From a virus, in the IMG/VR virus record IMGVR_UViG_3300024062_000044, positions 1-28,643 of that record: a DNA stretch of 28,643 bases. One strand, written 5' to 3'. The position numbers were made by a program, and so were the translations under genes. A model generated the notes under the pieces. It was not told where the DNA came from. It made no database searches and worked only from the letters and a program-made list of their open reading frames with translations. Below are positions 2,522 to 4,141 of this stretch, in pieces (position 1 is the stretch's first letter; every line of letters starts with the position of its first letter).

Positions 2522-2564
2522 TTGTCATAGTGTGAATCGAACACACTCGTGTACCATAATGACA
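2522..2564 (-). ncRNA. tRNA T-arm-like minihelix 2 within a 183-base non-coding gap
   Basis: On the minus strand, positions 2546-2530 form a T-arm: GTGTG, loop TTCGATT, CACAC. The loop is identical to hairpin 1. The following TATGACA can pair with TGTCAT at 2564-2559, so the element folds as an acceptor plus T-arm minihelix with no room for D and anticodon arms. Upstream, GTGTAC and GTACAC form a further 6-base inverted repeat. No complete tRNA could be traced in 2502-2684, and I see no ORF there. Confidence 0.35.
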
Positions 2565-2684: not shown

Positions 2685-2915
2685 TTATACTACCTCTTTA
2701 TCCCTTAGTACAACTGGAACGCTAGTTGAAGAAGTATACGAACCATATTTGTTGAAGCAATTTATAGAAGATAATTTATCTTTCATAATTTCATATACTT
2801 TATCATGATTGTAAGTAAATGATTTGCCTGATTTAAATTCTACATTGATAGTAGTATTTTTGCCGATTAAAGATTTTCTGATGACGAATCTTTTTGATTG
2901 AATTGAATTTTGCAT
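2685..2915 (-). CDS. Hypothetical protein (76 aa)
   Basis: It starts MQNSIQSKRFVIRKSLIGKN, then a beta-rich part (TTINVEFKSGKSFTYNHDKVYEIM) and a C-terminal strand VPVVLRDKEVV. The pattern VEFKSGKSFTYNHDKVYEIM suggests a small SH3- or KTSC-like beta fold, but this is a guess. It is the first gene after promoter-like element 4, with a 54-base leader ending TTTTAACTATG. Function unknown. Confidence 0.75.
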   Translation of the reverse strand: MQNSIQSKRFVIRKSLIGKNTTINVEFKSGKSFTYNHDKVYEIMKDKLSSINCFNKYGSYTSSTSVPVVLRDKEVV

Positions 2916-2995: not shown

Positions 2996-3127
2996 TTATT
3001 TATTTTGTTTTATAAATTGTGAAATTATATTTTCTAATTCAAGTTGTTGTGATGGCGTAATGTCGCCAGTTTCTAAATTAAAGTCGTCACATATTGAAGT
3101 GAAGTCAATGTATTGTAGTAATTCCAT
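2996..3127 (-). CDS. Hypothetical small acidic protein (43 aa)
   Basis: The frame reads MELLQYIDFTSICDDFNLET, then GDITPSQQLELENIISQFIK. The DFNLETGDITPSQQLELE stretch looks like a compact helical pair and recalls small proteins often seen in marine phage early regions; I cannot name a family. It is the first gene of the leftward block, 43 bases from the inferred start point of element 5. Confidence 0.7.
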   Translation of the reverse strand: MELLQYIDFTSICDDFNLETGDITPSQQLELENIISQFIKQNK

Positions 3128-3163
3128 ATTCTTATTGTTATTAGTTTTTATTAGTTACATTTA

Positions 3164-3195
3164 TATTATCATTATAACTTCGTATTAAGTATGTA
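3164..3195 (-). promoter_or_regulatory. T7-like promoter element, copy 5
   Basis: The minus strand reads TACATACTTAATACGA, nine bases (AGTTATAAT), GATAATA, again an exact consensus match. It is the outermost promoter-like element of the leftward block and lies 20 bases from the TGTCAT motif array (3216-3322), which could therefore regulate it. Inferred +1 is 3170. Confidence 0.7.
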
Positions 3196-3215
3196 AAATA
3201 GTTTAGTAGTAGAAG

Positions 3216-3322
3216 ATGACAAGATGTCATACCACTATGTCACTATGTCATTAACAATAGTATATTATATATATGACGTAATGTCATGACAATCAGTCAC
3301 ATGTGTCATGTCAATGTGTCAT
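3216..3322. repeat. TGTCAT/ATGACA motif array
   Basis: About nine copies of TGTCA(T) or its complement ATGACA occur in 107 bases: at 3216, 3224, 3237, 3245, 3281, 3286, 3304, 3308 and 3317. Some pair as palindromes, such as ATGACAAGATGTCAT and ATGTCATGACA. Spacing is irregular, unlike a CRISPR. The array stands in the divergent region upstream of promoter element 5. Clustered operators for a DNA-binding protein, or iterons of an origin, are the likely roles (inference). Confidence 0.6.
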
Positions 3323-3389: not shown

Positions 3390-3529
3390 TCTAAACCCCC
3401 CGCTCGGGGCCCTGGAAAGTCGTATATATGACATGGAAAATCCTGAAACGCACGCGGACCCGCAAATTTGAAACCCGTTTTCCCTGGAGAAAAAGATGGT
3501 GAGGATAGGGGGCAACACCATACCCCTAT
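3390..3529. other. GC-rich, hairpin-rich non-coding block
   Basis: Positions 3361-3540 are about 46% GC by hand count, clearly above the surrounding A/T-rich intergenic sequence. The block holds CCCC-GCTC-GGGG (3398-3409), GCG-GACC-CGC (3454-3463), a possible outer stem GGAAAA/TTTTCC around it, and ATAGGGG/CCCCTAT (3505-3529). A 64-codon minus-strand ORF crosses it but is not convincing. It may be a structured RNA, an origin-related element, or acquired DNA. The rest of the gene-free region 3197-3667 holds the motif array and an A/T-rich leader. Confidence 0.45.
3505..3529. terminator. Perfect 7-bp inverted repeat in divergent region
   Basis: ATAGGGG and CCCCTAT flank an 11-base loop. Neither side is followed directly by a T-run: on the plus strand six Ts come about 12 bases later, and on the minus strand TTTTT lies about 11 bases on. 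It might be a weak terminator or a protein-binding site separating the divergent blocks. Confidence 0.3.
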
Positions 3530-3535: not shown

Positions 3536-3667
3536 AACAACTTTTTTAAAAACAGTGACATAAGCCTTATAATATAGATAAGTAACACCCTATTGTCACA
3601 CTTTATGTAAAAACACTTCAAAACCTGTAATGATATAGACTAAAGAAAACAAATAAAAACTAACTAA

Positions 3668-4141
3668 ATGTCTATACTGCAAAGCTATCCAAAAGGTACG
3701 CCTAAAAAAGGAGATTATATAATAGGTACATCTATACCTACGGCTGGTTCTGATGAAATGCCAACTACTAGAAACTTTTCAGTAGATGCAGTCGCTGCAA
3801 TTGCTAACTCTACAGCTGCGTATACAGCGTATGCCGCTAGATTAACTGCTTCTAGTGCAGCTGGCGGTGGTACACCATCCGTTAATTTATTAGCTAATAA
3901 CACAGGTCTTGCGATCGCTTGGACCAGAATCGGTGTTGGACTATATAACGCAGCTATAACAGGAGGTATAGCACCAGAACAAAAAGTTTGGTTTACCGCG
4001 GGTAGTGGTGGTGGAAATGATTACCAAAAACTTTCTTGGGGCGATGAGACAGAATTAAGTCTTACTAACTATGACGGTACCACAGGGGTTGCGGTTGAAG
4101 GATTAAACGAAGTTTACATAGAAATTAGAATATACTCATAA
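3668..4141 (+). CDS. Tail-fibre-type structural protein (157 aa)
   Basis: The N-terminal 45 residues (SYP...GDYIIGTS...TRNFSVDAVAAIAN) align by eye with the N-terminus of the next protein (SYP...DAWIGTD...TKQFTASAVAKYLN). This suggests a shared virion-anchoring module. The rest is beta-rich, with glycine-rich turns (SAAGGG, GSGGGNDY) and a C-terminus EVYIEIRIYS typical of fibre tips. There is no signal peptide or membrane segment. It is the first gene of the rightward block, 4 bases before the next one. Receptor-binding or tail-spike accessory protein is the best reading; the exact role is inference. Confidence 0.6.
   Translation: MSILQSYPKGTPKKGDYIIGTSIPTAGSDEMPTTRNFSVDAVAAIANSTAAYTAYAARLTASSAAGGGTPSVNLLANNTGLAIAWTRIGVGLYNAAITGGIAPEQKVWFTAGSGGGNDYQKLSWGDETELSLTNYDGTTGVAVEGLNEVYIEIRIYS

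Follow-up and report, generated by a model that had tools for sequence, protein, structure and literature searches.

A conserved, lineage-specific TGTCA array beside a predicted leftward promoter in uncultivated marine phages

Lambda-like phages keep a divergent operator region under the control of an autoregulated switch protein. The Pho box consists of PhoB direct repeats, CTGTCAT at 11 bp, and MetJ is a ribbon-helix-helix regulator with short tandem boxes on which it loads cooperatively. Omega of pSM19035 binds 7-bp heptads, and its full activity needs four contiguous repeats (PMC9499535). Plasmid iterons measure 17–22 bp (PMC4980987). Here, we compare with these systems a dense array of TGTCA/TGACA pentamers in a phage genome; a search of the literature on such an array, or on elemovirus transcription, found nothing usable.

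The window analyzed is the whole of the 28,643-bp virus record IMGVR_UViG_3300024062_000044. Its portal protein is 50% identical to that of Manatee Spring phage, 48% to that of Maribacter phage Panino, 39% to those of Flavobacterium elemoviruses, and 35% to those of Cellulophaga phages such as phi38:1. These similarities are at the protein level only, and the first 8 kb had no nucleotide-level match among cultured phages. The source is an uncultivated marine phage, kin of the elemoviruses and other Bacteroidota phages. Relatives were collected from IMG/VR with three baits: the second rightward gene (29 loci), a 76-aa leftward gene (456 matching loci, 80 kept), and a 204-aa HTH protein (411 matching loci, 80 kept). 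Neither of the latter two proteins had a tblastn match among cultured phages, and no TGTCA cluster was seen in the first 50 kb of an Elemovirus record or in the 50 kb scanned of the 60.9-kb Manatee Spring phage. Among genome contigs, HTH relatives were found only in six MAG contigs attributed to unrelated taxa, and no host was therefore assigned. One 63.3-kb relative (G007) ends in a 510-bp direct terminal repeat and is probably a complete genome of 62.75 kb.

The array lies in an intergenic region bounded by small leftward genes, of which the last starts near 3126, and by rightward structural genes from 3668. Promoter-like repeat, array, GC-rich block, and dyad follow one another in that order:

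2685–2915, minus strand: conserved 76-aa leftward gene (SKRFVIRKSLIGKN...), the first conserved gene behind the array
3129–3196, minus strand: leftward promoter-like repeat, a member of the 68-nt family D1 (other copy at 2928–2995), its GATAAT-like core and the first site of the array lying 52 bp apart
3216–3322, unstranded: TGTCA/TGACA array, nine pentamers in two blocks (3217–3250 and 3282–3321) flanking an A+T-rich spacer
3217–3229, plus strand: unit 1, TGACA-AGA-TGTCA, 8-bp lag
3238–3250, plus strand: unit 2, TGTCA-CTA-TGTCA, 8-bp lag, 21 bp past unit 1
3252–3281, unstranded: A+T-rich spacer separating the two array blocks, GC 0.17
3282–3291, unstranded: adjacent pair TGTCATGACA, 5-bp lag
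3304–3321, plus strand: TGTCATGTCA and unit 3 (TGTCA-ATG-TGTCA, 3309–3321)
3395–3480, unstranded: GC-rich block between array and dyad, 0.53 GC, found in relatives with and without the array
3556–3598, unstranded: 43-bp dyad TGACA-N33-TGTCA before the rightward (structural) genes
3668–4141, plus strand: first rightward gene (P1)

By its position and repetition, the D1 repeat is the putative leftward promoter. A first-pass annotation of the DNA had located the array correctly, including its placement relative to this repeat and to the GC-rich block. The annotation had also counted nine copies of TGTCAT/ATGACA. That number holds for the pentamer TGTCA/TGACA, whereas exact hexamers number seven (3216−, 3225+, 3246+, 3282+, 3286−, 3304+, and 3317+). 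Over the whole window, the TGTCAT hexamer is not enriched (23 found, 18 expected), so the signal lies in its clustering: Markov simulations of 28.6 kb reached a maximum of three TGTCAT per 107 bp, against seven in the array, and 6-mers with at least two G/C reached at most six. Motif density elsewhere, raised earlier as a possible objection, is thus unequal to that of the array, the only place where a cluster occurs. All three TGWCA-N3-TGWCA units of the window (starting at 3217, 3238, and 3309) fall within it.

The array is also conserved in related phages, in both position and spacing, a point on which its first description had been made to depend. Among 72 distinct relatives carrying the 76-aa gene, it is present in 33 and absent from 39; gain and loss amount to about six changes on the gene tree. 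Where present, it always stands upstream of the first leftward gene, and every array-bearing full-length contig has one cluster per genome. Position and spacing are kept even where the adjacent P1 protein is merely 30–40% identical.

A distinct grammar is common to 38 distinct arrays, whose building block is the 13-bp unit TGWCA-N3-TGTCA. TGWCA pentamers follow one another at an 8-bp lag 95 times, against a mean of 20 and a maximum of 32 when equal numbers of sites were placed randomly in equal spans (500 trials). Of the 96 units, 95 end in TGTCA and share one orientation; the first pentamer is TGTCA in 66 units and TGACA in 30. Offsets between units are 13–23 bp, with larger gaps in addition, and the minimal array is TGTCATAATGTCATTGCACATTGTGTCATGATGTCA. 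In 34 of 35 distinct cases, the array starts 42–91 bp from a leftward GATAAT-like core (182 bp in the one outlier). Clustering, position, the 8-bp grammar, and promoter spacing together lend good support to the original description of a conserved multi-site element, predicted to bind protein, next to the leftward promoter. On sequence evidence, the array is genuine, conserved, and lineage-specific, and looks like a multi-site control element whose general kind is known but whose grammar is new; its binder and the direction of control are what we infer.

Some arrayless relatives carry other repeats in the corresponding region. Two to four AAGTCCGTGA-like repeats occupy the array's place in G003, G004, and G005, and in the latter two contigs the 76-aa gene is duplicated, with separate repeats upstream of each copy. 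In arrayless loci such as L070, L071, L072, L097, and L110, a GTATTGCNCACTNTCTC-like core is found where arrays have TTGCAC or ACCAC between units, and this core may be an older site around which the TGTCA units arose.

Like the Pho box, the array places direct repeats with a TGTCA core ahead of a promoter, but its characteristic lag is 8 bp (95 cases) rather than 11 bp (five cases). As in a lambda-like operator region, control sites stand between divergent gene blocks, and the gene of the candidate regulator has a site with the same core. Unlike that region, the operator dyad here overlaps a start codon, the array is lineage-specific, and no repressor or lysogeny genes were recognized.

The dyad (consensus gTGACAttAGCcTtatAag.tatAtaAGTAA.aggCTAtTGTCAC) has two locations in most genomes. 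One is 105–114 bp ahead of the first rightward gene, and the other spans the start codon of the 204-aa HTH gene (GGCTAATGTCA). It is present in 21 of 44 array-bearing loci and 27 of 45 arrayless loci; the dyad model used scored none in two of eight full contigs (G004 and G005). ATGTCA opens every one of the 71 distinct HTH genes, even though just some 26% of the Ser codons in these genes are TCA; in 60 of the 71, TGACA lies exactly 38 bp upstream. Because the inner bases of the left and right arms vary partly independently, we read the dyad as fitting protein half-sites better than an RNA hairpin. Alternatively, TGACA and TATAAG could be promoter elements (−35 and −10) for a phage sigma factor; the neighboring gene is sigma-like. 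Either reading implies a factor that would recognize TGACA. Before the rightward genes of G004, G005, L021, L024, L029, and L110, a GATATTATACTANGTATAATATC-like palindrome replaces the dyad or stands beside it.

The leading candidate for the array's binder is the 204-aa HTH protein, which is encoded in all 39 loci compared, array or no array. It has a C-terminal HTH with a subthreshold Pfam match. A fold search with a model of moderate confidence (pLDDT 78.5, pTM 0.58) gave no significant whole-protein match and a 36-residue local match to DtxR/IdeR-type HTHs. Two observations could fit the operator of a phage switch: the array keeps a fixed position relative to the promoter, and its TGACA core recurs in the dyad of the HTH gene, though with other flanks. 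In the dyad, the half-site reads RTGACAnwAGSS, with G at 96%. Those of the array have RTGACA in common with it and T in place of this G (G 2%), so that one protein would need two binding modes. Near-flank similarity between array and dyad half-sites nevertheless exceeds background (P about 7e-9, from sites that are not independent). Co-variation of the HTH protein with motif class was sought and rejected: the recognition helix is nearly constant, and array presence tracks the HTH tree no better than those of control genes (seven changes on the HTH tree, eight on sigma, five on the 76-aa gene, and five on ERF). The differing flanks, with AGSS lacking in the array, and the tree comparison keep the HTH protein a candidate rather than an established binder.

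The 76-aa protein was discarded as the binder, being present in 16 of 16 array loci and 23 of 23 arrayless ones; its confident fold model had no significant PDB or viral match. More generally, no leftward gene strictly accompanies the array (the best is found in 12 of 16 loci with the array and 6 of 23 without it; P = 0.004 before correction), and the binder should therefore be family-wide or a host protein. Accessory genes gave no convincing association with the array.

Our preferred reading, to which we give somewhat less than an even chance, is that the array is a multi-site control element near the leftward promoter, read by a phage HTH switch regulator. The array might instead be the operator of another protein, either a different phage protein or a regulator of the host, with no relation to the HTH protein or the dyads, a reading we regard as somewhat unlikely. 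Its half-sites do lack the dyads' AGSS extension, and tandem pentamers at 8 bp resemble ribbon-helix-helix operators such as those of MetJ and Omega: those boxes too are short, spaced at 7–8 bp, placed in promoter regions, and loaded cooperatively. TGWCA is moreover a symmetric pentamer at an 8-bp repeat, and Omega likewise binds tandem short boxes (PMC9499535). The array differs in that its boxes are paired, TGWCA-N3-TGTCA, with variable gaps and not in a continuous tandem run. The want of a strictly tied leftward gene would restrict such a regulator to the same family-wide or host proteins, and no ribbon-helix-helix family was recognized among the leftward proteins scanned, which include part of the small proteins. 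A nucleoid-protein site, as the first-pass annotation had also proposed, is unlikely because each genome has a single cluster. Taken with packaging or partition sites, this reading is highly improbable. Although parS arrays also gather many short sites in one place (PMC9499535), more than half of the relatives lack the array, it is fixed to the leftward promoter, and no partition protein was recognized among the proteins scanned.

An iteron-type origin, at which a phage initiator would bind the directional repeats, melt the A+T-rich spacer, and load the phage primase-helicase, is a possible but weaker reading and in our view unlikely, even though several features recall the iteron origins of plasmids (RK2, F, P1, and R6K). 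The repeats are directional (95 of 96 units in one orientation) and lie near an A+T-rich stretch, the spacer of GC 0.17 between the array blocks; unit offsets of 21–23 bp come to about two helical turns; there is a single site per genome; and genes for replication and recombination proteins (ERF, a PD-(D/E)XK nuclease, and a ligase) belong to the leftward operon. However, the units measure 13 bp against the 17–22 bp of plasmid iterons (PMC4980987), their offsets are irregular, and many minimal arrays have no A+T spacer between units. The 39 of 72 distinct relatives without an array include many close ones, no Rep protein was recognized, Pfam identified no initiator among 20 leftward proteins scanned, and the distance to the leftward promoter is kept. 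GC skew, suggested earlier as a check for an origin, proved uninformative. Its extremes match switches in gene direction, with which it is confounded: in the 62.75-kb genome, the skew flips at a convergent gene junction 45.4 kb from the array and not at the antipode, 31.4 kb away.

Under the preferred reading of control by a phage HTH regulator, a DNA-binding protein would load on the array in 13-bp TGWCA-N3-TGTCA units, several side by side and all in one direction. Occupancy would then rise steeply with protein concentration and would either activate leftward transcription or, more probably, shut it off. The likeliest source of the binder is the phage itself, and the leading candidate, the 204-aa HTH protein, is a product of the same leftward operon. 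The dyad over its start codon would allow autoregulation, and the other dyad precedes the rightward structural genes. A broader proposal is that one HTH regulator of a large group of uncultivated marine phages, undescribed before, reads a single TGACA core in two arrangements. A dyad spaced at 38 bp would serve over the regulator's own start codon and ahead of the structural genes; a tandem 8-bp array would serve at the leftward promoter of some lineages only, its roughly six gains or losses rewiring the early switch. We hold this to be possible though doubtful.

The locus offers a testable gene switch for a phage group with hundreds of metagenomic members, for whose control genes no cultured relative was found. 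We propose that it comprises a probable regulator with an operator of its own (conserved down to the choice among synonymous Ser codons), a further site ahead of the structural genes, and an early array confined to some lineages. Relatives that have gained or lost this array would amount to a natural experiment on the rewiring of a phage switch.

Other conserved features accompany these elements. The block at 3395–3480 is G-rich (GGGGNCC...AAACGNTTT-like) and is kept in relatives between the leftward and rightward control sites. The N-terminus of P1 is conserved, and in close relatives such as L001–L003, the match spans only about the first 48 residues (83–89% identity).

Farther left, tRNA-like minihelices lie at 2522–2564 (minus strand) and at 1920–1998; a tRNA finder reported no tRNA in the window. 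TGTCAT 6-mers had been noted in the outer stem of the first minihelix and connected with the array. They are literally present (2523+ and 2559−) but have no bearing on it: acceptor stems in relatives read AGACAT, AACAT, GTAGT, TGAAGT, and AGTCAC, among others, with the 3′ side complementary in every case, so the helix is kept with other stems and we reject the link as coincidence. In L065–L144, the minihelices lie downstream of the 76-aa gene, in the leftward leader. Each has an acceptor stem and a T-arm with a TTCGATT loop and is followed by ACTAATA; the short form is without an anticodon arm. A perfect T-arm is present in 52 of 80 loci.
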